A DNA stretch of 22,459 nucleotides, taken from positions 1 through 22,459 of IMG/VR virus record IMGVR_UViG_3300047557_001332; one strand, given 5' to 3'. The notes beneath the pieces were generated by a model. That model had not been told where the DNA came from, did no database searches, and saw only the letters and a program-made list of their open reading frames with translations. Source of the stretch: a virus. This document shows, one piece after another, positions 4,490 to 22,459 of this stretch (the first letter of the stretch is position 1; every line of letters starts with the position of its first letter). The position numbers and the translations under genes were made by a program.

Positions 4490-4505
4490 ATTATTTATTT
4501 ATTTG

Positions 4506-4578
4506 AACTCAGGACAGGATTCGAACCTGCATCTACCTAGCTACAATGCTAGGGCGTTACCAATTACGCTACCTGAGT
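4506..4578 (-). tRNA. tRNA, probably Thr (anticodon UGU), irregular anticodon arm
   Basis: The 73-nt cloverleaf has acceptor ACTCAGG/CCTGAGT (7 bp, perfect), D arm GCGT-AATTGGTA-ACGC with G18 G19, a five-base variable loop TAGAT, and T arm GCAGG-TTCGAAT-CCTGT (4 bp plus one G-T). No CCA is encoded and the discriminator is T. The anticodon arm is odd: CCTAG pairs with CTAGG around an 8-base loop CATTGTAG, or 6+6 bp around ATTGTA. By standard numbering from the 5' end, U33 is followed by UGU (Thr), but the stem is shifted one base, leaving no free base 26. It sits 8 nt after the SPFH gene and 16 nt before clpP. Confidence 0.85.
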
Positions 4579-7471: not shown

Positions 7472-7933
7472 TCAATCGATTATTGTTTTCTGTTCTTCTA
7501 TTTCTCGTTCTTCTGTAGAAAGTAAGCCCTTTCCAAAACGATCGACACGTTTCCAATAACGGTCTTTAATACGATTAGATATACGTAATGGATTTCCTTC
7601 ATCATCAATACGTACAAACGTAATACTTGTTTGCGTTACGACTTCTTGCACTCCTGTATATACATTATGCTTTCTGGCTTCGATATACATTGTTACGGAG
7701 GTATTTCCGAACTTCTCAACCCGACCGTAGAACTTTATTATATTGTTTACTTTAACGGGCTGTTTAAATATTAGCTCAGCAATTTTTATCGTGACCATTC
7801 TGGGCGTATCACAGATTTGAGCTGAATATACTGCAGCAGCTTCATCTATTAAGGCCATCATGTGTCCTCCGAACATGTTACGGTGCACTCCTATATCAGA
7901 TGCTTTACAAACAATCGTACTAATTAATTCCAT
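7472..7933 (-). CDS. Acyl-CoA thioesterase, hotdog fold (YciA/BFIT type)
   Basis: This 153-residue protein is a single hotdog domain. The signature is HRNMFGGHMMALIDEAAAVY (res 17-36): a conserved Asn, Gly-Gly, and the helix carrying D30/E31, followed by the strands VTIKIAELIFKQPVKVNN, KFYGRVEKFGNTSVTMYIEA and TQTSITFVRIDDEGNP. That is the order in acyl-CoA thioesterases of the YciA group, which hydrolyse acyl-CoA to free acid and CoA. The C-terminal tail (KRVDRFGKGLLSTEEREIEEQ) is polar. It lies directly after the phosphatase and glycosyltransferase genes (2 nt gap), so an envelope-lipid link is possible. It is unusual cargo for a phage. The substrate cannot be read from the sequence. Confidence 0.85.
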   Translation of the reverse strand: MELISTIVCKASDIGVHRNMFGGHMMALIDEAAAVYSAQICDTPRMVTIKIAELIFKQPVKVNNIIKFYGRVEKFGNTSVTMYIEARKHNVYTGVQEVVTQTSITFVRIDDEGNPLRISNRIKDRYWKRVDRFGKGLLSTEEREIEEQKTIID

Positions 7934-7935
7934 TT

Positions 7936-8649
7936 TTATTTATGATAGTTTATTAATGTCCATTTACCATCTTTAGTTTCTGCTAGTGCCGTACAATTCT
8001 CACACCAATCCCCTGAATTCATATATTTATCAGTCATTGCTGGTTGATGAATATGTCCGCACACTGCTACATCACATCCTTTTTGCTTTGTTAATCTTAT
8101 AGCATTATCTTCAAAGTCATTTATAAAGTTTGTAGCTTTCTTAATGCCGTTCTTAATGTCCTTTGATATTGAGTAGTATGGTAATCCTCTCCAATGTCTC
8201 CATCTATTGTACCAACGGTTAATCCAAAGTGCAATATCATATCCTATACTACCGATATAAGCTAACCACTTAATCTTAGTGATAAAGACATCTAATACAT
8301 CCCCGTGAAATATATAGTAACGAGCCTTGCCGTGTTGATGAATCCAATCCTCTACAATCTTAATGTTTCCTAAATCGAATGGCAGAAAGTCTTTAAGGAA
8401 CTCATCATGATTACCTCTTATCCAAACTACCTCAGTATCCGTTTCTGATATCTTTAATAGTTTACGAATAATCTTTGTATCCTTCTTAGTCCATTTACTT
8501 CCTCTCTTTAATGCCCAACCGTCAATAATATCTCCGTTGAGTATTAAAGTGTCTGTTGATAAGGTTTCTAAAAAGTTTAAGATATCATCTCTTCTCGATG
8601 CCTTACTTCCCAAATGTAAGTCCGACATCACTACGGTATTATATTTCAT
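7936..8649 (-). CDS. LpxH-like metallophosphatase (UDP-2,3-diacylglucosamine diphosphatase family)
   Basis: The motifs of a calcineurin-like metallophosphatase appear in order: SDLHLGS, GDIIDGW, RGNHDE, HGD, CGHIHQP. The tryptophan-rich helical insert between HGD and CGH (about 142-157: LWINRWYNRWRHWRG) and the overall length of 237 residues match the LpxH-like group (COG2908), whose best-known member cleaves UDP-2,3-diacylglucosamine in lipid A synthesis. Bacteroidota carry several paralogues of this group with unassigned substrates, so the exact substrate is uncertain. The start is set at ATG 8649 (MKYNTVV), which overlaps the glycosyltransferase stop by 4 nt; the frame can be extended two codons to a TTG at 8655. 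The paired arrangement with a GT2 gene suggests joint action on an envelope glycolipid. Confidence 0.87.
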   Translation of the reverse strand: MKYNTVVMSDLHLGSKASRRDDILNFLETLSTDTLILNGDIIDGWALKRGSKWTKKDTKIIRKLLKISETDTEVVWIRGNHDEFLKDFLPFDLGNIKIVEDWIHQHGKARYYIFHGDVLDVFITKIKWLAYIGSIGYDIALWINRWYNRWRHWRGLPYYSISKDIKNGIKKATNFINDFEDNAIRLTKQKGCDVAVCGHIHQPAMTDKYMNSGDWCENCTALAETKDGKWTLINYHK

Positions 8650-9347
8650 GACCAATAATTATAATCTTGTTTATAGAAGTCATCATTGTTACGATTGAGC
8701 CAACAACGAATCATTAGTTTACACATATACCAAAATCCTTTATTCTTAAATCTTCTATCTGAAGTATAAGCATAATAGTTAAATATCTTAAAGTATTTTG
8801 GTTTAGCTTTCATTGATAAATGATAATCCTCAGCAAATTTATCTTCTTCGTTAAACTGACCTAATTCTTTAAAGTATTCAGAATTGAATAACATAAACCC
8901 TCCAACAGCAAACGGCGTCTTGAATGATATAATCCATTGAACTAAATCAAATAGCTTATAGAACAAAGCATATTTTAAATTCCAAGTACTAATATTACAA
9001 GTAGCTATTTTAATGTCTCTGTTAATCATAGCCGCTACCATTTGCTTTAAAGGTAGTTTAGATACATCCATATCAGCATCCAAGAATAATACATAAGGAG
9101 TTTTAACTTCTTTAAAACCATTATTACGTGCAGCTGCTGGTAATCCTCCCTTAACTACTTTAATATCTATATCGGATAAGTGCTGAATCATATCTACATA
9201 TACTAATGTATTGTCATCAGAAGAGTCAGCTATTATTATATTACGTACATCATGTGTAACTATTAACTTTAATAGAGTAGATGCTATTCCGACTTTCTCA
9301 TTTTTGCAAGGAATAACTACTGTTAAATTTTTGTTTAAAAAGCTCAT
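8646..9347 (-). CDS. Family 2 glycosyltransferase
   Basis: This 233-residue protein has a GT-A nucleotide-sugar transferase fold. It starts with LTVVIPCKNEKVGIASTLLK (res 8-27), continues with NIIIADSSDDNT, and has the metal-binding DxD in FLDADMD (88-94). Acceptor-side motifs follow (PFAVGGFMLFNSEYF, then EEDKFAEDYHLSMKA, where ED is the usual catalytic acid region). A hydrophobic stretch (KYALFYKLFDLVQWIISFKT) could make it membrane-associated. The gene overlaps its neighbours by 4 nt on both sides. It may glycosylate a lipid or surface structure of the host, or a phage component; the sequence does not decide. Confidence 0.87.
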   Translation of the reverse strand: MSFLNKNLTVVIPCKNEKVGIASTLLKLIVTHDVRNIIIADSSDDNTLVYVDMIQHLSDIDIKVVKGGLPAAARNNGFKEVKTPYVLFLDADMDVSKLPLKQMVAAMINRDIKIATCNISTWNLKYALFYKLFDLVQWIISFKTPFAVGGFMLFNSEYFKELGQFNEEDKFAEDYHLSMKAKPKYFKIFNYYAYTSDRRFKNKGFWYMCKLMIRCWLNRNNDDFYKQDYNYWS

Positions 9348-9580
9348 CGTATTATTTTTATTTCAGATTCCGTTTCAATTACAACTCTCGCTCCACAACC
9401 CAATAAAGGTTTAGCATCACATCCATGTCCTCCGTATATAATCTTACTCGGACCTAATATCTCTACTTCATTACAATAAGTATTAGTACGTCCTTGTTTG
9501 ATTGTTATGACAGGTAAGTATGTGCCTTTTGTTTTGTTAGAGCGTATGTTATGTTGATTTACATGAATCTTTGATTTCAT
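9344..9580 (-). CDS. Conserved small phage protein (KIHVNQHNIR type), 78 aa
   Basis: The protein starts MKSKIHVNQHNIRSNKTKG, continues with PVITIKQGRTNTYCNEVEIL, and ends with PLLGCGARVVIETESEIKII. This matches a short protein that recurs in many unrelated phages; its function is unknown. It has a predicted all-beta fold. It shares one base with the aminotransferase gene's end and overlaps the GT2 start by 4 nt (ATGA). Confidence 0.82.
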   Translation of the reverse strand: MKSKIHVNQHNIRSNKTKGTYLPVITIKQGRTNTYCNEVEILGPSKIIYGGHGCDAKPLLGCGARVVIETESEIKIIR

Positions 9581-10689
9581 TATATTTTTATATTATTAAA
9601 GAATTTCACGAACTTATCATGAGGTACGCTTACACAAACTCTACTGAATGAAGAATAAAAATCTTTATCATGATATGTGAATTTATCTAATCCAACAGCG
9701 CCGATTTTATTTTTGAATAAAAAGTCCTCATTTAAGTTTATAATAGAGAACATTCCTTTAGGTTTTGCTCCATGATAAATTTCATTTACTAAAAGATTAT
9801 TTTCATATAAATAATCAATATTCTTAAAAATATCATGTGTCGTCTTTTCTCTAAACTCGCTAACAGCATCATGTCCTTCTTTACTAGATAATAATTCATT
9901 AACTAATAATTGAGAACTAGAACAAACTCCGTTAAATTCATATAGAATACGAATATTCATCTCAGAATTAAAGTCTCTGTCATTACACCAAACAAATCCT
10001 AATCTCGAACCAGATACTCCTAATGACTTTGAAAATGATTCACAGATAATTATATTTTCTAGATTAGCGATCTTATCAAATAAATCCATATCATTTTTAA
10101 ATAGCTTTCTGTATGGGCTATCAAAAACGACAGTTACTCCTAAGTTATTTAATTTAACTATATACTCATATAAAAATTGGTCATCTAATTTAATCCCTGT
10201 AGGATTATTAGGGTCGCAAATAAAGATACAAGTATTGCTATTTAATTGATTAAGCTTCAAATCATCTAAACCATCATAAAATGAAAATGATTTATTTCGT
10301 ATAGTAGCCATTTTAGAATATGACCCCCAATAAAACTTAGGAAATAATATAGTATCTACATTTAACGTTTGTATAATTAAATCTAAACCAGGCATACCAC
10401 CTGGCATTACTGTTACGTTTGTAAATTGATCTGTAGATGTAGAAGGAAAATATTCTTTAATAATATTACGTCTTAATACTTCTAATCCTAAATTAGGAGC
10501 ATACATTTGATAATCCTTTGTATTTGGATCAATTCTCTTAACTACCTCAGTTAAATCAATATTCGTAACAGCATTAACTCCACGATTTAAATGTAAATAC
10601 TCTTCTCCAGTTTCTTTTTCAGCTTTTGATACCTTTTGACCAATTCCTACGATTGAGGAAAATGTAACATTGCTATGATTGATTTTCAT
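9580..10689 (-). CDS. PLP-dependent aminotransferase, class I/II (fold type I)
   Basis: This 369-residue protein has the full set of class I/II aminotransferase motifs. They are YAPNLGLEVLRRNI (63-76), the glycine-rich PGGMPGLDLI (96-105), CDPNNPTG (158-165), FDSPYRKL with the cofactor-ring Asp D190 and Y193, the PLP lysine K221 in ESFSKSLGVSGSRLGFVW with R229 for the phosphate, and near the C-terminus FSRVCVSVP, whose Arg binds the substrate carboxylate. It therefore looks catalytically complete. The residues do not tell which amino acid is used. Such enzymes are rare in phages. Possible roles include making a sugar-nucleotide or base precursor, or amino-acid metabolism. It shares one base with the upstream dNMP kinase (TAATG). 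Confidence 0.88.
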   Translation of the reverse strand: MKINHSNVTFSSIVGIGQKVSKAEKETGEEYLHLNRGVNAVTNIDLTEVVKRIDPNTKDYQMYAPNLGLEVLRRNIIKEYFPSTSTDQFTNVTVMPGGMPGLDLIIQTLNVDTILFPKFYWGSYSKMATIRNKSFSFYDGLDDLKLNQLNSNTCIFICDPNNPTGIKLDDQFLYEYIVKLNNLGVTVVFDSPYRKLFKNDMDLFDKIANLENIIICESFSKSLGVSGSRLGFVWCNDRDFNSEMNIRILYEFNGVCSSSQLLVNELLSSKEGHDAVSEFREKTTHDIFKNIDYLYENNLLVNEIYHGAKPKGMFSIINLNEDFLFKNKIGAVGLDKFTYHDKDFYSSFSRVCVSVPHDKFVKFFNNIKI

Positions 10690-13441: not shown

Positions 13442-13733
13442 TCTTAGTAGCTAAATCGGTTGTAAACATATAACGATATTTCATCAATAGTCTTTGCATC
13501 TTTTGACGAGTCTTATATTCTTCGTATGTTTCTAACTCGCTACGCTCATTTGATAATGTCGTAATATCGTTAACTAATCTAAGGTTTGAATCTAAAGATT
13601 CGTCAATTACCCAGTTAATAAACTTAAAATGCTGTTTAGGGCCGATTACATAACTAGGTACAGACATACTCATATTTTTTAAGAATGAGTCTCTAAGTCT
13701 GTTTGTGTCTTGAATGATTGCTGTATTTATCAT
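13431..13733 (-). CDS. Small protein of unknown function in the replication operon, 100 aa
   Basis: Unrecognised. The protein is mostly helical: MINTAIIQDTNRLRDSFLKN, then VPSYVIGPKQHFKFINWVID and a charged helix ELETYEEYKTRQKMQRLLMK. It overlaps the clamp-loader ATPase by 11 nt and the HNH gene by 4 nt (ATGA). In T4 the translational repressor RegA lies near this position, but I see no RegA similarity. It might be a clamp-loader accessory factor, judged only by position. Confidence 0.7.
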   Translation of the reverse strand: MINTAIIQDTNRLRDSFLKNMSMSVPSYVIGPKQHFKFINWVIDESLDSNLRLVNDITTLSNERSELETYEEYKTRQKMQRLLMKYRYMFTTDLATKNDN

Positions 13734-14416
13734 ATTTTTGTTTTATTTTTATATTTTCTATTTTTAGCAGCTAGGGATAATTTATGTTTAGTTTCTTCTG
13801 TTATAACACGTTTACGACGTGCGATTGATAGCTTTAATCTTGTTTCTTCAGATACTATATGTCCCATATTTGCTTTTGATATTTTTCTTTTTGTTTCGGC
13901 AGAAATACTTCGACCAGTCATCGACTCTGATATTTTCTTTTTATGTAGTTCTGATAATCCACCTTTAGATTTTCTATTTTTTGCGGCATCGGACATTTTC
14001 TTTCTAGTCTCTTCCGAATGACCTTTTTTAGGTCGAGATAGTTTCTTTTTTGTTTCTTCTGAAATTGTGCGGTTCGAAAGAAACTTAGAATGAATTACTT
14101 TAACAGATTCATATACCCTGCTACTAGGAATATACCTCTTATTATACTTACTAGAGCCATTTATCATCATCCATAAAGCATATCGTAATTTGTTATTATC
14201 AGGATATATTTCACATAATAATCTATGAGCCATGTAATGTTCTTTAGCTGTAAGAAGAACAATGTTTGGGTGTCGTATATCATAGGCATTGCCTTCTCCA
14301 CCCAAACATTTAGGTACAATGTGATGAGCTTCATAATATATTCCTCCTTTTATCTTCTTTCTATCTTCAGACCTAGCCTTAGATATAATATCATTATAAA
14401 TCTTTTCGTAATTCAT
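13730..14416 (-). CDS. HNH homing endonuclease with NUMOD3 repeats
   Basis: This 228-residue protein has an HNH nuclease core, YEAHHIVPKCLGG (H31, H32), N51 in HPNIVLLTAKEHYMAHRLL, and H60/H64. About five NUMOD3 DNA-binding repeats follow from residue 115 on, each of the form (S/T)EET+xKxS, for example SEETRKKMSDAAKNR and SEETRLKLSIARRKR. The C-terminus is strongly basic. It lies between the sliding clamp and the clamp loader, a conserved region where phage homing endonucleases often settle. It does not appear to interrupt a recognisable gene. A 59-aa basic ORF overlaps its start by 23 nt. Confidence 0.9.
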   Translation of the reverse strand: MNYEKIYNDIISKARSEDRKKIKGGIYYEAHHIVPKCLGGEGNAYDIRHPNIVLLTAKEHYMAHRLLCEIYPDNNKLRYALWMMINGSSKYNKRYIPSSRVYESVKVIHSKFLSNRTISEETKKKLSRPKKGHSEETRKKMSDAAKNRKSKGGLSELHKKKISESMTGRSISAETKRKISKANMGHIVSEETRLKLSIARRKRVITEETKHKLSLAAKNRKYKNKTKI

Positions 14417-14621: not shown

Positions 14622-15338
14622 TTACTGTATCGAGAGCTGAACTAAGTAATAAACTGAATTAAAATCCTTACCGGTAAAGGTAACTCTGGCTAATCCTTGA
14701 CCAGATACTTCAAATACTCCTGATTCTGCTCCTTTGTTTGCAGTTAAGATTTCTTTAAAGATATTAGCAGAGAAACATGTAGCACTTAACTTATTATTTG
14801 CTGTTGCATCTACCGAAAACTTAATTCTATTAGTATTTACTGTAGAATAATTAAGTAAGATCTCTGATGAAACTGCATCCGATACAACTGCAAAGTTTTC
14901 TGCTTCTGGCATACCATTCTTCGCCTTTAAAAACTTCTCTGAGAACTCTTTTGTAATATTAATGGTTACATCAAACTCAGGAAGGGCTTTTACTTTTGGA
15001 ACTGACTTAATAACAGATAAATCTGCTAACATATAAGTGATTGATGTATTAGCATCATTAACAATCATAGAAAATACTTTATCTCCTGATTTAACGAATT
15101 TAATATCAATGTTCTCATCTAATACAGAAAGCATTTTTAATAATTGGCTTGTTGTATAAACTGCCAACTCTGCATCTTCCATATCAACAGATTGTAATGT
15201 AACTTCTCCGATTACATTTTGATTTGCGGAAATAAATGAACAAACTAACTGTCCATTCTTCACAACTAATTTTACGCTGTCAGTGTTACCGGCTAAGTAA
15301 TAGCGATTAATAAAACTAACTAATTTTTCTTTTTGCAT
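14622..15338 (-). CDS. 45: Sliding clamp, T4 gp45-like
   Basis: This 238-residue protein fits the phage trimeric sliding clamp that tethers the polymerase and, in T4, also activates late transcription. Visible cues are the N-terminal FINRYYLAGNTDSVKLVV, the LVCSFISANQNVIGEVTL strand pair, the mid-length KMLSVLDENIDIKF, the second-domain SVDATANNKLSATCFSANIF, and the C-terminal FNSVYYLVQLS typical of gp45 proteins. Its length is close to T4 gp45 (228 aa). It is separated from its loader genes by the HNH cassette. The polymerase at 19338-21884 ends in a likely clamp-binding peptide, which fits the pair. Confidence 0.85.
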   Translation of the reverse strand: MQKEKLVSFINRYYLAGNTDSVKLVVKNGQLVCSFISANQNVIGEVTLQSVDMEDAELAVYTTSQLLKMLSVLDENIDIKFVKSGDKVFSMIVNDANTSITYMLADLSVIKSVPKVKALPEFDVTINITKEFSEKFLKAKNGMPEAENFAVVSDAVSSEILLNYSTVNTNRIKFSVDATANNKLSATCFSANIFKEILTANKGAESGVFEVSGQGLARVTFTGKDFNSVYYLVQLSIQ

Positions 15339-15356: not shown

Positions 15357-15387
15357 TAATTATAATGATTTATTTTTAATTTTCAAA
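15357..15387 (-). promoter_or_regulatory. Possible promoter for the sliding clamp
   Basis: On the minus strand, TTTG, 19 nt, then TATAATTA, with CATTATAATTAAG resembling the CATTATCTTTAAG core of the three clear promoters. The -33 part overlaps the last codons of the DpdA-like gene. The -7 box departs from TAnnTTTG at one T, so this is weaker evidence than copies A-C. It would give the highly needed clamp its own transcript. Confidence 0.45.
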
Positions 15388-16584
15388 GAAATTTGACATA
15401 ACTTCTTTATGTTGCGAAGGAACCCACTGACCGCCATAGTTTACGTAATAGTGTCTATACTGCTCATAAATTCTAAAAGCATTATCGGGTTGAGCGAACA
15501 TCTCGTGAATTGATTTAAGGATAATATGCATATCGCTTGGAATAACTCCTTCTAATAACTCTACATCTTTACTGCAGAACTCAGAAATATCAAGCATACC
15601 TTTATTAAATACTAATAAGTTTTGAATAGTTGCTCTATCATAATACTCCTGCTTATAATCATTAACTACTCCCATTGTAAAGTTTTTAGATACCGGAGTT
15701 TCTAAAAGAACAGGTAATAATTGTGAATCTGTATACTTAATATCTCTCGACACGTGCATTTGAGTCCAATTTAATGTTCCAAAGTTCGGTCCTAAGATCA
15801 AATCACCATACACTGGAAATTGTCCTGGAGATGAACTATCTGTCATTAATTGTATTCTACCACCATAATACTTATTTAAAAGTGCTTGATATGTTCCTAA
15901 GATAAAGAAATCAGATACTTTTGAAATACCCAACATATGAATAAATTCATTTCTTGGATTTTCAAACTCTCTGTTTTCTAAGAAAAGAGCAATTGTATAA
16001 ATAAAATCCACTAATCTACGACTACCTCCAACACACCATCCTTTAAAATCAAAATGCTTAACGGTATCATACCACAAATTAAACTGACTAGGATTATTTC
16101 CTTGAAGTACATTTAAGAATCTAGTTTTACCTTGTTGCTTATTGGCAAAGTATTTAAAGTTATCATAACTAAAATCTAATGATTCTTGAAATTTACCTTC
16201 GTATGACATACGTGGCGGAATATCTAAATTAGCAGCTACGTCAGAATTTTCTTCTAAGAATGCTAATATTTGGTCTCTAATAGCTACATCCCATTTAATG
16301 GCTCCTGATGCAATCTGGAAACCTCCTGAATCACCAAATGTAAATACATTCTCTAATCCAAATGTAATACGAGAATCCATCTTTTTATAAAAGTGACCTG
16401 CTGTAATTAAGAAGTATGGGTGTCTAAATTCTGCTGGGAAGTCTTCCGCATAGAATCTGGAAGTCAATCCAGGTTCGATTTCTCTATTCTTCTTTAAAGA
16501 AGCTGCCGTTCCTCCTGCGGATAATGAAGGAATAAATAACGGCTTTCGAGTTGGGTTCGGTGCAACGATTTTTGATAAATCCAT
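15376..16584 (-). CDS. dpdA: TGT/DpdA-like 7-deazaguanine DNA transglycosylase
   Basis: This 402-residue protein has the TIM-barrel motifs of tRNA-guanine transglycosylase in the right order: FGDSGGFQIASG (D85 and SGGFQ 86-90), NLDIPP (D121), LNVLQGN (QGN 161-163), WCVGGSRR (GG 186-187), HMLGIS (217-221), and MTDSSSPG with D249 in the nucleophile position. The CxCxxC...H zinc site near the C-terminus of tRNA enzymes is not visible. Phage relatives of this kind (DpdA) exchange guanine in DNA for preQ0-type bases, which blocks host restriction. Here the gene is near GTP cyclohydrolase I and a QueD-like gene, which supports a DNA role over a tRNA role. QueE and QueC are not in the window and could lie beyond 22459. 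A TATCTTTA element precedes it. Confidence 0.8.
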   Translation of the reverse strand: MDLSKIVAPNPTRKPLFIPSLSAGGTAASLKKNREIEPGLTSRFYAEDFPAEFRHPYFLITAGHFYKKMDSRITFGLENVFTFGDSGGFQIASGAIKWDVAIRDQILAFLEENSDVAANLDIPPRMSYEGKFQESLDFSYDNFKYFANKQQGKTRFLNVLQGNNPSQFNLWYDTVKHFDFKGWCVGGSRRLVDFIYTIALFLENREFENPRNEFIHMLGISKVSDFFILGTYQALLNKYYGGRIQLMTDSSSPGQFPVYGDLILGPNFGTLNWTQMHVSRDIKYTDSQLLPVLLETPVSKNFTMGVVNDYKQEYYDRATIQNLLVFNKGMLDISEFCSKDVELLEGVIPSDMHIILKSIHEMFAQPDNAFRIYEQYRHYYVNYGGQWVPSQHKEVMSNFFEN

Positions 16585-16608
16585 TTTATAACTTATTTTT
16601 ATCTAATA

Positions 16609-16640
16609 TAAAGATAATATTTCAAATAACCTAATGTATG
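16609..16640 (-). promoter_or_regulatory. Possible promoter for the DpdA-like gene
   Basis: TATCTTTA on the minus strand (16609-16616) is identical to the -7 element of promoter copies A-C and lies 24 nt before the ATG at 16584. No TTTG is present at the expected -33 distance (the bases there read CATA), so only half of the motif is supported. The position directly after a terminator (16645-16666) favours a real start of transcription. Confidence 0.5.
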
Positions 16641-16644
16641 AACA

Positions 16645-16666
16645 TAAAAAAAGCCCTTTTGGGGCT
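16645..16666 (-). terminator. Rho-independent terminator after the MNKSQL gene pair
   Basis: Minus strand: AGCCC, loop CAAAA, GGGCT, then TTTTTTT. The 5-bp GC-rich stem with a U tract is the only clear intrinsic terminator I find. It lies 14 nt after the stop of the 16680-17435 gene and before the DpdA-like gene, so it separates the two transcripts. The plus strand also ends in a T-rich stretch, so it could work both ways. Confidence 0.8.
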
Positions 16667-16679
16667 AATTTTATTTTTA

Positions 16680-17435
16680 TTAAAGATTTTCGTAATTTTG
16701 AATTGGGTTCTCTTGTTTGAACTCTGCCCAACGTTCTGGAAACTTACTGATTGATGCTTTACCCACTTTGTAATCTTCATGTTCATGAATGCTAGGTGCA
16801 GGTTCTCCAGCGCTTCCATCGGTATAGCCCGGATTTGATTTGATTTCTGTTTCTGCTGCCACTTTATATTCGTTAGAAGGATATCCTTTTCCATTATTAG
16901 AACTTTGCTCTCTACGTATTGTAGCACCGAATGCGGCAGTTTGTAATTCTTCTGCTGTTGGTTTTGTAGCAACGTATATACCATGACCGAACCAAGTAAA
17001 TCTAGCAGTATCGCTTGGATTGACCATTTCCGTTCTTTCGCCGTTAGGAGTAACTACTGTTACTTCTTCAGTACGACCCGGTTTATTTAAATCGTATGTT
17101 ACGCTCTTTACAGAAACGTTATATCCATATCCACCGCCGCTTTTAGTACAAGATATTAATCCAGATGCTAAAATAAAACAAGTAGCTCCAAGAACGATTT
17201 TATCTTTTAGCCCTTCTTCAACATTAGCATTAGTAAATGAATCTCCGTTATACTTAACGATTTGCTCTTTTCCGGTAGCTTTGTTTATGATTTTAACGTT
17301 AATGGGTTCTGATGTATCAACTCCAGCTTTTGTTAGTGCCGTAGTTAATTTATCTTTACCGGATGAGCTTTGTTCTTCTTCGCGAATGTTATTTAATTCC
17401 TCACGAATAAGTTTATGTAGTTGCGATTTGTTCAT
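16680..17435 (-). CDS. Protein with MNKSQL N-terminal helix and internal lipoprotein-like signal, 251 aa
   Basis: I do not recognise a family. The N-terminus MNKSQLHKLIREELNNIREE is shared with the preceding gene product. A polar region follows, then at about 73-96 a perfect-looking lipoprotein signal: charged EEGLKDK, hydrophobic IVLGATCFILASG, and lipobox LISC with C96. After it come a glycine-rich spacer (TKSGGGYGYNV) and a beta-rich polar region (VKSVTYDLNKPGRTEEVTVV, TPNGERTEMV) with a Ser/Asn/Gly-rich C-terminal half, suggesting an exposed or secreted part. No Met lies just before the hydrophobic stretch, so a shorter lipoprotein starting there is unlikely. The start at 17435 (7 nt after the upstream stop) is preferred over a TTG-initiated frame from 17474, because it gives the shared MNKSQL start. 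A virion protein is possible. Confidence 0.72.
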   Translation of the reverse strand: MNKSQLHKLIREELNNIREEEQSSSGKDKLTTALTKAGVDTSEPINVKIINKATGKEQIVKYNGDSFTNANVEEGLKDKIVLGATCFILASGLISCTKSGGGYGYNVSVKSVTYDLNKPGRTEEVTVVTPNGERTEMVNPSDTARFTWFGHGIYVATKPTAEELQTAAFGATIRREQSSNNGKGYPSNEYKVAAETEIKSNPGYTDGSAGEPAPSIHEHEDYKVGKASISKFPERWAEFKQENPIQNYENL

Positions 17436-17442
17436 ATAAATC

Positions 17443-17844
17443 TTAGTTTTTTGTTTTCCAAAGTATTCCGGCAATAAATGCTTTTGCTAAGGCTTTTTCT
17501 TCGTTAGGATTATTTGATTTATCACGAGCATATTCTTGAGCTGCATTCATAATCTGTGGTCCTAATAAAGCAGGGTCAAAGTCTGGTGCTACGTCTGTAT
17601 AGAATTCTTTTAAACCCTTTTTAATCTCTTCTTTAATACGTACATCTTTAACATTAGGTGACTTTTTAATACCTGCAACGATTCGAAATAATTCAGTTGT
17701 AGATGGATCTGCCATAACTTTTTGTGTGGTTCTGGTTCCATTCTTATTGATTATCTCAAGTTCAAATTCTTTCGATTTAGATTCTTCTTTTAATGCAGTG
17801 CGAATCTCTTCTTTGATTAGTTCTTTTAGTTGTGATTTATTCAT
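17443..17844 (-). CDS. Protein with MNKSQL N-terminal helix, 133 aa
   Basis: No known family. The N-terminus MNKSQLKELIKEEIRTALKE is a basic/acidic amphipathic helix nearly the same as that of the next gene (MNKSQLHKLIREEL). The middle (FELEIINKNGTRTTQKVMAD) is strand-like, and the C-terminal half (GPQIMNAAQEYARDKSNNPN and KALAKAFIAGILWKTKN) is helical. Similar K..LK.LIKEE starts recur in proteins of large T4-like phages. The LIKEE motif has the [LI]xE form cleaved by T4-type prohead proteases, which would fit a capsid-targeting propeptide; this is inference. Confidence 0.72.
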   Translation of the reverse strand: MNKSQLKELIKEEIRTALKEESKSKEFELEIINKNGTRTTQKVMADPSTTELFRIVAGIKKSPNVKDVRIKEEIKKGLKEFYTDVAPDFDPALLGPQIMNAAQEYARDKSNNPNEEKALAKAFIAGILWKTKN

Positions 17845-17864
17845 TACAAGATATTTTATTATAA

Positions 17865-18959
17865 TTATTCCTGAATATCGAAAATAATACGTTTCATTTC
17901 ATCTATTCTATAATAATTAGTATCTAGATGTAATGCCCATTCCTCAATACCCTCTTTATACGTATCATAGTTCTCCATTTTATCTTTAATATACTCTATG
18001 ATTTGTGTATAATGCTCTGTATAATTTACGTAGCTTAATGTCCATTCCGAAGGATATCTCCACTTCTCAGGAACTATCTCTGTGAAGTTTAATCTGTTTG
18101 GGGCTAATGGTATTGCTCCATGCATAATAGCTTCAAATGCCGTTATGGAAGAAGAATCAATCAAATCGGATATAAATACGTATTTGGAAGAAGCTAACAA
18201 TCCATGATACTGAGTTTCGTTGGGCATCTTATCTTCTATACAAACCCATTCGTATTGAGGTAATGCTCGTTGCAGTTCGCGGAAGATAATTAGTTGACGA
18301 TCTACAGTTCCTCTATCAGCAAAAAGAATCATATTACGTTTAAGAGTTCCTTTATACTGCTTAGCATAATCTCTTACATGTTCCATTGGAGGCCCGGCTT
18401 TATGAATACGATTTGGCGCGTTGAATAGTTTCTTTGCTGCGATAGTTTTAAAGTTAGTTTTAAGCATAGCTAAATGATAATCACTATCATAATAGTTATA
18501 GTTAATAGCGGCGAATAAAGCTCGTTCTGCGTGCTTTTGCCAGATTAAGTTTTTAGCGAATGAAAGATAAGATGTTTTATTAAACGACCCCATTTGCCAA
18601 AATCCATGTATCCAAATAGGAACACGATAAACAGTAGATAAATATCTTAGTTGAAAGATTGCAGGATTCCAAGCATCCATAAAAATAAAATGATCTCCTT
18701 GACTAACTTTCTTATTATAAAAAAGCTCCGCAAATCTTGATGACTGCGAAGCTTGTTGATTTATAATATCTTTAAATGTTAATGGAGTATCATCTATAAT
18801 CGTTAATGGATTTGGTTGTATATCGTAAATGGTTTGAACTACATACTTTAAACCCTTTTGTTGGATATAATCTTCTAAAGTGTTTTGAATGTTGTTTTGC
18901 CAATTACGAATATACTTTAAATCAATCGTCTTACTATCTATGATAAAGATTGTTTTCAT
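17865..18959 (-). CDS. GT-B fold glycosyltransferase (GT4-like)
   Basis: This 364-residue protein is laid out as a two-domain GT-B glycosyltransferase. The N-terminal domain has the acceptor-side pattern (HFIFMDAWNPAIFQL, VYRVPIWIHGFWQMG). The C-terminal domain has RNMILFADRGTVDRQLIIFR, LPQYEWVCIE, LLASSKYVFISDL, and the sugar-nucleotide signature AFEAIMHGAIPLAPNR (274-289), equivalent to the E-rich site of GT4 enzymes. The substrate is unknown. T4 alpha- and beta-glucosyltransferases, which modify DNA bases, are also GT-B enzymes, and here the gene overlaps the QueD-like gene by 4 nt, so a role in DNA decoration is possible. A role on a surface glycan is equally open. Confidence 0.8.
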   Translation of the reverse strand: MKTIFIIDSKTIDLKYIRNWQNNIQNTLEDYIQQKGLKYVVQTIYDIQPNPLTIIDDTPLTFKDIINQQASQSSRFAELFYNKKVSQGDHFIFMDAWNPAIFQLRYLSTVYRVPIWIHGFWQMGSFNKTSYLSFAKNLIWQKHAERALFAAINYNYYDSDYHLAMLKTNFKTIAAKKLFNAPNRIHKAGPPMEHVRDYAKQYKGTLKRNMILFADRGTVDRQLIIFRELQRALPQYEWVCIEDKMPNETQYHGLLASSKYVFISDLIDSSSITAFEAIMHGAIPLAPNRLNFTEIVPEKWRYPSEWTLSYVNYTEHYTQIIEYIKDKMENYDTYKEGIEEWALHLDTNYYRIDEMKRIIFDIQE

Positions 18960-19315
18960 ACTAATTCACAGCGAGCGCCATTTTCATTATCTTCCCAAAC
19001 CTCAACCCAATTACATCCGAATTCGTTAAGGATTTCTTTTGCAAGCATTTCGCAAGATCTATGATCGAATAAATGACTACGAGCTGAACTATTATAATAT
19101 TTTTCGTGAAGATAATCTAATATATCACGCTTAAACATTATAAACTCTCTATCTCTGTCATCATGAAATACTTCTAACGAAGCTTTGAAGGTAAAGATGT
19201 GTCTGTGATAATCAGATAAGAACCCTACTTCTGGAAATACGTCTTTTGCTGCTTCCCAACGATGCATACCGTCTACACTAAGACTAACTATAACTGTTGT
19301 TTTTAAATCTTTCAT
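18956..19315 (-). CDS. QueD / 6-pyruvoyltetrahydropterin synthase-like protein
   Basis: This 119-residue protein follows the T-fold layout of QueD/PTPS. The three zinc-ligand histidines are H18 (DGMHRWEAA), H37 and H39 (DYHRHIFTF). EFIMFKRDILDYL stands for the usual 'DF..LK' helix, LFDHRSCEMLAKEIL for the D-H pair plus 'TSE.LA' helix, and WEDNENGARCEL for the terminal glutamate. The catalytic cysteine of QueD, four residues before the HxH, is replaced by Leu33. I recall a phage-rich QueD-like subgroup with the form 'VEGIHRW...HRHIF'. QueD converts dihydroneopterin triphosphate to carboxy-tetrahydropterin toward preQ0. With GTP cyclohydrolase I upstream and a DpdA-like enzyme downstream it probably belongs to 7-deazaguanine synthesis, but the missing Cys leaves the reaction uncertain. 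Confidence 0.78.
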   Translation of the reverse strand: MKDLKTTVIVSLSVDGMHRWEAAKDVFPEVGFLSDYHRHIFTFKASLEVFHDDRDREFIMFKRDILDYLHEKYYNSSARSHLFDHRSCEMLAKEILNEFGCNWVEVWEDNENGARCELV

Positions 19316-19337
19316 ACTATAATATAATAAATACTAA

Positions 19338-21884
19338 TTAAAAATCAAAGAAGGATTTCATATTATTATTCTGCGGAACTACTCCCCAACCCAATGCTCC
19401 AAAGAAATCATTAAGTTTATTTTCCAAGGAAGCTTCAAAGATGCTCGTATAATCTATATTTTCCTTAACGATAGAATAGATATCCTTTGGATCATTAAAG
19501 CCCGTTAAAGCTAAGGTTTCAATACCTAATCGGTTAGGTTTTAGATAAGTCCATTTAATCTTATCGCCATCACTAATCGGAGCCATTGAATTGATTTTAA
19601 AGTGCTCTAACAAATCATTAAAGTTCGCAGCAGATTTTGCGTGAATAGGCATTCCTTTAGGTCTTGTTTTGAATATCGAACCAGTCTTTTTACAGGGATA
19701 CTTACTTAATTCCTTAATACCAGATATCGTCATAATATCATAGATATCTAAGTTTGGTAATGAATCTTTAAGTTCAAATATCTTATCTACAATCTCTTGC
19801 TTCTCTGCTTTATTAAGAATATCAATTAAGATGCCCGACATAAATCCTCTAAATGCTTTTGGAAATGAAGAACGAACTACATCTAATCCTTTTACATCTA
19901 GTTTATATTCTTTTTTACCGTTAGTCATTTTAGAGATACTCACACCTTTTTCAGAGATAATTTTTTGAGCATATCGCTTCTTTGCAATCCATATCGCTGT
20001 TTCAGATACATATTCTTGCTTTGTTTGGAAATGATGCTCTGTAGCATTAAAGGCTCTCTTTGCAAAATCACTAAACGTAGAATTGATAATAGTTTCACAA
20101 GCTACAGCAAGTTTAAACGTTACCTCAGAACATTCTTCTTTAGTTAATTCTCGACCTCTATCTCTTTGCATCTTTTTAATTAATGGCATTGCTGAAAAGA
20201 ATGCAGAATCCGTATCGATATACAATACATAATCAATACCAGCAGTTCCTAGTTTTTGATTTAGCCATTCATTTGCATAACTTGTTTTATGCATAATAAC
20301 TGCTTTACCGCCCAACGTAGTTCCTTCGGCATTATCAATATCATAAAATCTAAAACCGGCATTACCTAATACACCATATAATGAGTTAGATAAGATCTTC
20401 ATAGTTAACTGTCTTGAATCAAAGAATCGATACATTTTTTCATTACCAGCTTCTCCGTTCTTTTTAGCCAACTGACGATATTCAGTTCTTTCAGCATCCC
20501 ATTTTTCTAAGATAGATGGAACCAATCCTTTTGTTTTAAGATCATAAATAACTCCAACAGCTGAAACTGAGAAGTTATTTTCTTCCAAGAATTTTCTTAA
20601 CTCAAGACCTTTCCAAGATTTAGATTTATACTTATATACATATTCTGTATCATCATTCATAAATCTCTTGTGGTCCCAATTCTCAATCTTACATACTTTA
20701 GTTTCTGGAGAAATATTAATCGTTCTTTGAGTAGATGGATAAAGTGCTTTTAAGTCCAAGTCATACACCCATTCATACAATCCAGGTTTAGGATCTTTTA
20801 CAAATGCTCCTTCAAATCCATTTTCGTTATTATCATCTTCATCCTCACTAGATTCTTCTCTTAAAGGTTTATTAGTAGCAATAACGCCCAAACGATTTAA
20901 GTAAGTAAGACAGGCACCATCTAGATATCTAGAAGAAGCAAATACATCTTCATAAGGAACATGTCCTTTATGAGCAATGTTTCTTGCTAATGTAATAAAG
21001 TCGAGCTTATCATCTAAATCAACAACTAATTGAACGTCATTAATATTATACTCAATAAACTTCTCTAAATCTGTTTTATAAAGATTATCTAAATCGCCAT
21101 CATACTTTATCTTTCCACGACCCAATTCCTTTTGTGAGATAAATTCTAAAGCATAAGACGGTTCTTCGTTATAAGTAAATGCTCTATACAAATACATATA
21201 ATCCAGCGCTGCTACACCACCAATATTCATTCTATCTTTACGGAAGTCTTTTGAAACTACTCCAACTGGACTTAACTGTTTCGCTACATTCGCTCCACAA
21301 AGTTTCTTAGCTCTGTTATAGATATAAGGAACGTCAAAACCATCTATATTCCATCCCGTTAAGATATCTGGACGAATCTCTAGATAAAGTTGAAAGAATC
21401 TCATTAATAAATCTTTCTCAGTAGAAAATGCTTCGAAGATATATTTATCCGTTCTTTTATTTTTTGTAAGATGTTCTTTATCTAATAATAATACGTTCCA
21501 ATCTTTAGAAATATTATCATATAAAGTTATCGCCGTTATTTCATTATCTGCATCCCATGGAGTAGAATAACCATCTCCTTTAGATACCTCAATATCAAAA
21601 AACATTGTAGTTATATTTTCTGAGATGTCATCCGTATCTCCATAGTTGTCTATCAGTATCCTAATTTCAGGTCTGATATCAGATTCATAAATAATTCCTC
21701 GTTGCTCATCTTCTTTATCCCAATTATATACTTTCTCTACACGATTACCGTCTAGAGCAGTATACAACCCATTAGGAGCTTTGATATAAGCATATTTCTT
21801 ATACTTGAAATTAAGACGACCTTTTTTATCATCCCAAACGATTACTTCGTTACTGTTTCGGTCGTAATATACGTTTTTGTACAT
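19338..21884 (-). CDS. 43: Replicative DNA polymerase, family B (T4 gp43-like)
   Basis: This 848-residue polymerase has a full proofreading domain: Exo I FFDIEVSKG (D97, E99), Exo II GWNIDGFDVPYIYNRA (177-192), and Exo III EYNINDVQLV (278-287). The polymerase motifs are motif A YDLDLKALYPS (374-384), motif B LTMKILSNSLYGVLGNAG (493-510), motif C YIDTDS (555-560), and later WIAKKRYAQK. Its length is near that of T4/RB69 gp43 (about 900). The C-terminus ends NMKSFFDF, comparable with the ...FDMFDF ending by which RB69 gp43 binds its clamp. The gene starts directly after folE (adjacent stop and start) and ends 22 nt before the QueD-like gene. It appears intact, with no intein or endonuclease insertion. 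Confidence 0.96.
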   Translation of the reverse strand: MYKNVYYDRNSNEVIVWDDKKGRLNFKYKKYAYIKAPNGLYTALDGNRVEKVYNWDKEDEQRGIIYESDIRPEIRILIDNYGDTDDISENITTMFFDIEVSKGDGYSTPWDADNEITAITLYDNISKDWNVLLLDKEHLTKNKRTDKYIFEAFSTEKDLLMRFFQLYLEIRPDILTGWNIDGFDVPYIYNRAKKLCGANVAKQLSPVGVVSKDFRKDRMNIGGVAALDYMYLYRAFTYNEEPSYALEFISQKELGRGKIKYDGDLDNLYKTDLEKFIEYNINDVQLVVDLDDKLDFITLARNIAHKGHVPYEDVFASSRYLDGACLTYLNRLGVIATNKPLREESSEDEDDNNENGFEGAFVKDPKPGLYEWVYDLDLKALYPSTQRTINISPETKVCKIENWDHKRFMNDDTEYVYKYKSKSWKGLELRKFLEENNFSVSAVGVIYDLKTKGLVPSILEKWDAERTEYRQLAKKNGEAGNEKMYRFFDSRQLTMKILSNSLYGVLGNAGFRFYDIDNAEGTTLGGKAVIMHKTSYANEWLNQKLGTAGIDYVLYIDTDSAFFSAMPLIKKMQRDRGRELTKEECSEVTFKLAVACETIINSTFSDFAKRAFNATEHHFQTKQEYVSETAIWIAKKRYAQKIISEKGVSISKMTNGKKEYKLDVKGLDVVRSSFPKAFRGFMSGILIDILNKAEKQEIVDKIFELKDSLPNLDIYDIMTISGIKELSKYPCKKTGSIFKTRPKGMPIHAKSAANFNDLLEHFKINSMAPISDGDKIKWTYLKPNRLGIETLALTGFNDPKDIYSIVKENIDYTSIFEASLENKLNDFFGALGWGVVPQNNNMKSFFDF

Positions 21885-22459
21885 TTATTTTAGGTTCTTA
21901 ACGAAATTATAAAACTCTTCTCTTACTGCAGCATCATCTTTAAATGCTCCAGTTAATTTTGAAGTTATCATTGTTGAATCATGTTGGATACCTCTTAAGC
22001 AAGCACATTGATGACCTGCTTTAATCATAACTGCAACACCAAGATTACCTTCGCAGGTCTTATCTAAATAATCGCTAATCTGCATAGTTAGATTTTCTTG
22101 GACCTGTGGCATACGACAAAAATAATCTACAACGCGATTTAATTTACTTAAACCAATTACTTTACCGTTTGCTGCTGGAAGATATGCTACATACGCTTTA
22201 CCTACAAAAGGCAAATGGTGATGACTGCAAATAGATTTAACATTGATATCTCCTTGAAAGACCATTCCATCGTATTGATCTGTATTAGAAAATGCTGTAA
22301 TTTTAGGTGGTTCATTAAACTTTGATTTAATTAAATCGTTAACAAAAGATTTAGATACTCTTCTTGGAGTATCCATTTCATGTGGATTATTATCAGGATC
22401 TAGTCCTAATGCTTTCATAAAATCATAATAATGCTTACTAGCATTCTCAATAATTTGTT
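21885..22459 (-). CDS. folE: GTP cyclohydrolase I, 5' end beyond the window
   Basis: The protein converts GTP to 7,8-dihydroneopterin triphosphate, the first step toward folate and toward preQ0/7-deazaguanines. Visible motifs are MDTPRRVSKSFV, the zinc and active-site segment SICSHHHLPFVGKAYVAYLP (Cys and His ligands), IGLSKLNRVVDYF, PQVQENLTMQI, and GHQCACLRGIQ with the second Cys ligand. An ATG at 22418 is possible, but the frame stays open to the window edge with homologous residues (QIIENASKHYYDF before MKALGLD), matching the helix before 'METPHR' in other FolE proteins. The true start therefore lies beyond 22459. Placed beside the QueD-like and DpdA-like genes, it fits supply of a modified DNA base. 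Confidence 0.95.
   Translation of the reverse strand, partial: QIIENASKHYYDFMKALGLDPDNNPHEMDTPRRVSKSFVNDLIKSKFNEPPKITAFSNTDQYDGMVFQGDINVKSICSHHHLPFVGKAYVAYLPAANGKVIGLSKLNRVVDYFCRMPQVQENLTMQISDYLDKTCEGNLGVAVMIKAGHQCACLRGIQHDSTMITSKLTGAFKDDAAVREEFYNFVKNLK

Follow-up and report, generated by a model that had tools for sequence, protein, structure and literature searches.

A candidate QueC-free branch of phage 7-deazaguanine DNA modification with a linked glycosyltransferase

Deazaguanine genes beside a phage DNA polymerase

Modification of phage DNA with 7-deazaguanines is already known. In this pathway, FolE, QueD and QueE make 7-carboxy-7-deazaguanine (CDG), and QueC converts CDG to preQ0 (PMC13329287). 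A gene cluster on an IMG/VR record raises the question of what becomes of CDG in phages where QueC is not found. The window, by which we mean the whole record of 22,459 bases, is a fragment; the tailed phage from which it comes has a replication module of the T4 type. Read along the minus strand, it carries folE, a DNA polymerase, a T-fold gene, a glycosyltransferase gene, two small ORFs, a dpdA-like gene and a presumed sliding clamp. The first-pass annotation had placed FolE, a QueD-like T-fold protein and a TGT-like protein beside the DNA polymerase, identities that our searches bear out, and had passed over the 364-aa glycosyltransferase gene. The cluster is not a chance association, because the same genes recur jointly in many unrelated phages.

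GTP cyclohydrolase I (FolE; 21885..22459, minus strand) matches PF01227 (E-value of 3.6e-48, model positions 9-178 of 179) and phrog_2197 (E-value of 6e-55). The contig edge truncates its 5' end: 177 aa can be read from the first visible ATG, the open frame runs on to the end of the record, and relatives of 209-213 aa start further upstream. The family B (T4 gp43-like) DNA polymerase (19338..21884, minus strand) was identified by tblastn through a match to Microcystis phage Mel-JY01 (41.8% over the full length); it lies within the cluster and is not itself a member of the modification pathway. At the other flank, the ORF at 14622..15338 (minus strand) has no family match in Pfam or PHROGs. It is presumed to encode a gp45-like sliding clamp from its position beside clamp-loader genes and because the syntenic region of ACP17 carries an annotated clamp and clamp loader. 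The two small ORFs between the glycosyltransferase gene and dpdA (17443-17844 and 16680-17474, minus strand) belong to no convincing family. They vary among relatives, with other genes occupying the same place in two of them (L002 and L003), and are probably unrelated to the modification cluster. The ORFs at this place (window 16680-17844, L002 9181-9906 and L003 8500-9900) are unrelated neighbours with a common N-terminal motif like MKKSxLKxLIKEEI, perhaps a targeting or processing signal.

Several features elsewhere in the window, all on the minus strand, deserve mention. Thymidylate synthase (64-1950) is split into an N-terminal part (1630-1950) and a C-terminal part (64-873) with a GIY-YIG-like endonuclease ORF (860-1582) between them. 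Rfam found no group I intron in this region, and the gene may be split by a free-standing homing endonuclease; thymidylate synthase also matches in separate pieces in a 197-kb relative. An HNH/NUMOD3 homing endonuclease (13730-14416) is inserted between the clamp and clamp-loader genes. A tRNA gene (4505-4578; Rfam, 50.9 bits) has an odd anticodon loop, for which ARAGORN gives two anticodon bases only. A metabolic island (7472-10689) encoding a YciA-like thioesterase, an LpxH-like phosphoesterase, a GT2 glycosyltransferase and a class I/II aminotransferase possibly modifies the host envelope.

The DpdA-like guanine transglycosylase of the TGT superfamily (402 aa; 15376..16584, minus strand) has, on its own, no match in Pfam, PHROGs or NCBIfam, nor a useful one in a direct PDB sequence search. 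The profile of its family does align with E. coli TGT (hhalign 95%, E-value of 1.9e-8) with the active-site motifs DSGG.Q, QG and GG and the nucleophilic Asp in register, and 2 of 16 relatives match PF01702 (E-value of 1e-6). Residues invariant in the family are DSGG.Q (D85), D121, QG161-162, G186, H216-L218-G219 and D249. The zinc site of tRNA TGT (C-x-C-x2-C...H) is present in E. coli TGT, whereas no Cys occurs among the invariant or near-invariant columns of the DpdA family. Relatives of the window protein carry the annotation queuine tRNA-ribosyltransferase.

The window DpdA is homologous to gp168 of PA5oct (E-value of 1e-22). An HMM built from its clade finds the proteins of Phosso and PA5oct (E-value of 1e-31), ACP17 and pf16 (6e-6) and Ps15 (1.5e-4), that of KVP40 only marginally (0.23), and neither E. 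coli TGT nor the DpdA of phage 9g. A grouping with tRNA TGT, which the first-pass annotation had named as evidence against DNA modification, is thus not what the searches return. ACP17, X1, BUCT-ZZ01, Ps15, pf16 and the KVP40 group, to which nt-1 presumably belongs, form one DpdA2 family. Vibrio phage nt-1 defines DpdA2, and its DNA holds mainly dPreQ0 (PMC6884629). Judged from these sequence comparisons, the window DpdA is a distant relative of DpdA2, to which a DNA-modifying function can be transferred with moderate confidence; it is far from the experimentally tested DpdAs. With the DpdA falling together with PA5oct, Phosso and DpdA2, and with QueE and QueD upstream of FolE in a relative, 7-deazaguanine DNA modification remains the best reading of the locus, as first proposed.

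The T-fold protein and the absence of QueC

The T-fold gene (18956..19315, minus strand) encodes a 119-aa protein with no Pfam or NCBIfam match. It belongs to phrog_17812, described as 'unknown function' (E-value of 2e-26), and a direct PDB sequence search with the protein alone gave nothing useful. An AlphaFold model based on 34 relatives (pLDDT 93.6) resembles E. coli QueD (4ntk; Z 11.9, 2.4 A over 106 residues), with other PTPS enzymes also among the top matches, and the phrog_17812 profile matches a phage QueD profile at 84.8%. Like QueD and 6-pyruvoyltetrahydropterin synthase (PF01242), phrog_17812 has the T-fold, the metal-binding histidines (H18, H37 and H39, invariant or aligned with the QueD HxH) and the anchoring glutamate (E108, invariant). 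It differs in having no PF01242 match and in the catalytic residues. Across 34 sequences, an invariant leucine (L33) takes the position of the QueD catalytic Cys, four before the HxH, and no motif corresponds to the Asp-His pair of QueD, whereas C27, D78 and H79 are invariant in 20 of 20 phage QueD sequences from the same contig set. Invariant motifs specific to phrog_17812 are EVFHDDRD, SCE and ED.ENG, within 25 invariant residues overall, and EVFHDDRD sits in a region where QueD has other residues. Moreover, phrog_17812 occurs in addition to a true QueD in relatives. We therefore rejected the T-fold protein as the QueD of this phage: the QueD-like fold recognised in the first pass stands, but not the QueD step. 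These residues suggest that phrog_17812 is a paralogue of QueD whose active site has been rebuilt, and its modelled QueD-type pocket appears well suited to a pterin-like or deazaguanine ring.

The window record is a fragment without QueD and QueE, so these genes, and the absence of QueC, are known from relatives. The 197-kb relative, whose DpdA is 90% identical to that of the window, has the order QueD, QueE, a second glycosyltransferase, folE, polymerase, phrog_17812, glycosyltransferase, dpdA and clamp. QueE and QueC had been expected upstream of the window or from the host. QueE, together with a canonical QueD, does lie just upstream there, but QueC was found neither in this relative nor in one of 115 kb. 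Since these relatives are without QueC, the preQ0 derivative originally proposed as the modified base is unlikely unless the host supplies QueC.

The same pattern holds among isolates. Of 12 isolate phages with phrog_17812, 11 have FolE, 11 have QueE and 11 have a PTPS/QueD protein (10 over the cut-off), the exception being Faecalibacterium phage Roos each time, and none has a canonical QueC. QueC-like matches in this set are a partial one in D479 (32.8 bits) and a sub-threshold one in X1. The former was dismissed as a counter-example, as it resembles a second QueC-like gene of KVP40 and D484, which have a real QueC too. In X1, the gene before dpdA, considered as QueC by comparison with Ps15 gp139, matches the glycosyltransferase HMM (E-value of 4e-90) while QueC proteins do not; X1 is among the training sequences of that HMM, and independent support comes from its BLAST match to the ACP17 and window glycosyltransferases. 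Seven long phrog_17812 contigs of 54-197 kb have no QueC, and an eighth has a sub-threshold match only. Conversely, Ps15, pf16, KVP40, D484 and 9g have QueC and are without phrog_17812.

Using HMMs of our own, we surveyed 94 loci with phrog_17812, which form 37 clusters at 80% identity; an HMM of the phiST kinase that drifted onto FolE was left out. A glycosyltransferase was present at 44 loci, a second type of TGT-like gene at 49 and a third TGT-like gene, assigned by eye, at one (Roos). The glycosyltransferase and the short TGT-like gene were together at none of the 94. The window-type DpdA is in view at 42 of the 44 glycosyltransferase loci; of the others, Phosso has its DpdA elsewhere in the genome and L078 is cut. 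The second TGT-like family is shorter, with motifs DNGA or DNSA, PQG or PQS, IG-S, H-LG, and DSS or TDS. A TGT-like family of 259-290 aa accompanies phrog_17812 in phiST, MA9V-3, D479 and Ahp1 (L016, L015, L107 and L110), and a kinase-like gene adjoins it in the first three.

Because these counts condition on phrog_17812, we also surveyed 34 loci chosen by DpdA alone, each flanked by 4 kb or more on either side. Here, 28 loci had both phrog_17812 and the glycosyltransferase, two had the glycosyltransferase only, two had QueC, in one case along with a distant glycosyltransferase, and two had none of these, while phrog_17812 and QueC occurred together at none of the 34. The surveyed loci are not phylogenetically independent, and we give counts and no probability. 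The phages involved are diverse and include Arenbergviridae, Kyanoviridae, Busanvirus, Straboviridae, Cbastvirus and jumbo phages. Two loci (L191 and L192) combine a window-type DpdA with QueC and have no phrog_17812, which amounts to a natural exchange inside a single clade of DpdA. At two others (L148 and L149), phrog_17812 and QueC are both missing although DpdA and a related glycosyltransferase are there, and the coupling of phrog_17812 to the glycosyltransferase is thus not absolute. These two instead have an ORF resembling hypoxanthine-guanine phosphoribosyltransferase and another, conserved, of 139 aa (L148 2457-8007, L149 2656-7989).

Taken with the residues of its pocket, this distribution suggests that the T-fold protein probably processes CDG in place of QueC. 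Cui et al. are said to have reported dDG in phages in 2023 and to have predicted a CDG decarboxylase, DpdL. The T-fold protein is perhaps this enzyme: the predicted step from CDG to 7-deazaguanine is the same, and phrog_17812 occurs where that step is needed. We know of no linked glycosyltransferase described for DpdL.

Two characterised systems resemble the cluster. The DpdA2 pathway of the nt-1/KVP40 group and Menderavirus Ps15 likewise groups FolE, QueD and QueE with a DpdA of the TGT superfamily in a single region, but it carries QueC and is without phrog_17812. In Ps15, QueC directly precedes dpdA; in X1, the glycosyltransferase takes that place and phrog_17812 follows dpdA. The archaeosine system of Enterobacteria phage 9g similarly has FolE, QueD, QueE and a DNA transglycosylase beside replication genes. 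It differs in that Gat-QueC is present, phrog_17812 is absent and its DpdA1 is not detectably similar to the window DpdA. Ps15 has a myo-inositol-1-phosphate synthase inside its FolE-QueC-DpdA-QueE cluster (L117 3454-4704), which might hint at another decorated deazaguanine, and in BUCT-ZZ01 a xanthine-guanine phosphoribosyltransferase annotated between QueE and QueD (L111 7441-7902) could salvage the guanine released by DpdA.

The linked glycosyltransferase

The start of the glycosyltransferase gene (17865..18959, minus strand; 364 aa) shares 4 bases with the end of the T-fold gene. Searches of Pfam, PHROGs and NCBIfam and a direct PDB sequence search with the window protein alone returned nothing useful. 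Its predicted structure (pLDDT 83.6) has a GT-B fold, the nearest among the matches listed being BshA, MshA and sucrose-phosphate synthase (Z 23-25), and 11 of 21 family members match PF00534. The EX7E motif, characteristic of retaining GT4 enzymes, is found in most relatives; the window protein has D268-x7-E276 instead. We regard it as a predicted GT4-type, retaining enzyme. The T4 alpha- and beta-glucosyltransferases offer a precedent for a GT-B enzyme that decorates a phage base after insertion, but their substrate is hydroxymethylcytosine, whereas the window enzyme is GT4-like. They are absent among the 50 fold matches listed for its model, although a relation to them may exist nonetheless.

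Homologues of the glycosyltransferase were found by tblastn in 14 of 50,697 phage records, and all 14 also have phrog_17812. The pairing recurs in the unrelated phages PA5oct, Phosso, ACP17, BUCT-ZZ01 and X1, with the two genes adjoining in the first three. At the 44 loci with both, they are always on the same strand and in 30 cases overlap or lie within 100 bp. This linkage points to a further modification beyond deazaguanine, and the GT4 enzyme probably adds a sugar to the modified base. On 7-deazaguanine, a sugar could be attached only at carbon 7 or at the amino group, which makes it an unusual and awkward acceptor. To our knowledge, no sugar-bearing guanine position in DNA has been described. 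Searches of open-access literature, outside which key papers lie, turned up no deazaguanine system described with a glycosyltransferase. The jumbo phage PA5oct has homologous DpdA, glycosyltransferase and phrog_17812 genes close together; the passages of its description that already note a system for deazaguanine synthesis and incorporation do not link a glycosyltransferase or a QueC substitute to it (PMC7824862).

A proposed pathway and its alternatives

From the computed gene identities, folds, residues, co-occurrence and mutual exclusion, we infer CDG as the substrate, its decarboxylation, DNA as the target and glycosylation of the base. FolE, with QueD and QueE as seen in relatives, would make CDG from GTP. 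QueC is replaced, and CDG is therefore the point of divergence: phrog_17812 would act on it, most likely as a decarboxylase that yields 7-deazaguanine. The DpdA-like transglycosylase would then swap 7-deazaguanine for guanine in the phage DNA, and the GT4 enzyme would add a sugar to the base, or act on the free base before insertion. On balance, we favour the view that the cluster encodes a form of phage 7-deazaguanine DNA modification that dispenses with QueC, comprising CDG processing, DpdA insertion and probable glycosylation. Its most specific form, a glycosylated 7-deazaguanine in DNA reached from CDG through phrog_17812, DpdA and a GT4 sugar transfer, possibly with C-glycosylation at carbon 7, is a tentative proposal to which we give somewhat less than an even chance.

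The missing QueD catalytic residues might also mean that phrog_17812 is a CDG-binding partner or pseudoenzyme. DpdA would then insert CDG itself, with the glycosyltransferase, where present, capping the carboxylate, or with the carboxylate as the final group. With that carboxylate, the glycosyltransferase would have an oxygen to act on, and L148 and L149 have DpdA and the glycosyltransferase with neither phrog_17812 nor QueC. Still, 25 invariant residues, including EVFHDDRD, suggest a working active site and not a relic, and we consider this reading unlikely, if by no means far-fetched. An ordinary preQ0 or archaeosine pathway, with QueC provided by the host or encoded elsewhere in the phage, seems improbable to us. 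The window is a fragment, and many 7-deazaguanine phages infect hosts with genes for the queuosine pathway (PMC6884629). Yet the 197-kb and 115-kb relatives have no QueC, the 12 isolates keep FolE, QueD and QueE with no canonical QueC in any, and phrog_17812 and QueC are mutually exclusive.

It is very doubtful that the cluster modifies tRNA through a tRNA-targeting DpdA-like enzyme, as membership of the TGT superfamily and the annotation of relatives could suggest. The family is without the Cys-x-Cys-xx-Cys zinc site of E. coli TGT, the single-clade HMM finds DpdA2 proteins and not E. coli TGT, and dPreQ0 is present in the DNA of nt-1, the phage that defines DpdA2 (PMC6884629). Finally, phrog_17812 and the glycosyltransferase could make a glycosylated pterin from the FolE product, comparable to the cyanobacterial biopterin glucoside and with no role in DNA. 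The PTPS fold, the presence of folE in the same cluster and the resemblance of the glycosyltransferase model to tetrahydrobiopterin glucosyltransferase (5zes, Z 20.4; 9v0l, Z 20.2) are consistent with this. However, the fold is generic and the best listed structural matches are other GT4 enzymes, DpdA and QueE would have no role, and 49 loci combine phrog_17812, QueD/QueE and another TGT-like gene with no glycosyltransferase, making such a product scarcely credible.

Returning to the QueC-free branch, the reciprocal gene replacement in many unrelated phages predicts a branch of guanine hypermodification that bypasses preQ0, and the cluster supplies a candidate for a glycosyltransferase acting on DNA bases. 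The isolates PA5oct, Paride and its kin, ACP17, X1, BUCT-ZZ01 and Phosso share this gene set. The DNA of the window phage and its relatives may carry a modified, perhaps sugar-coated base that is so far undescribed. If so, a sugar on guanine would join the known sugars on cytosine and thymine derivatives as a route past restriction and CRISPR.
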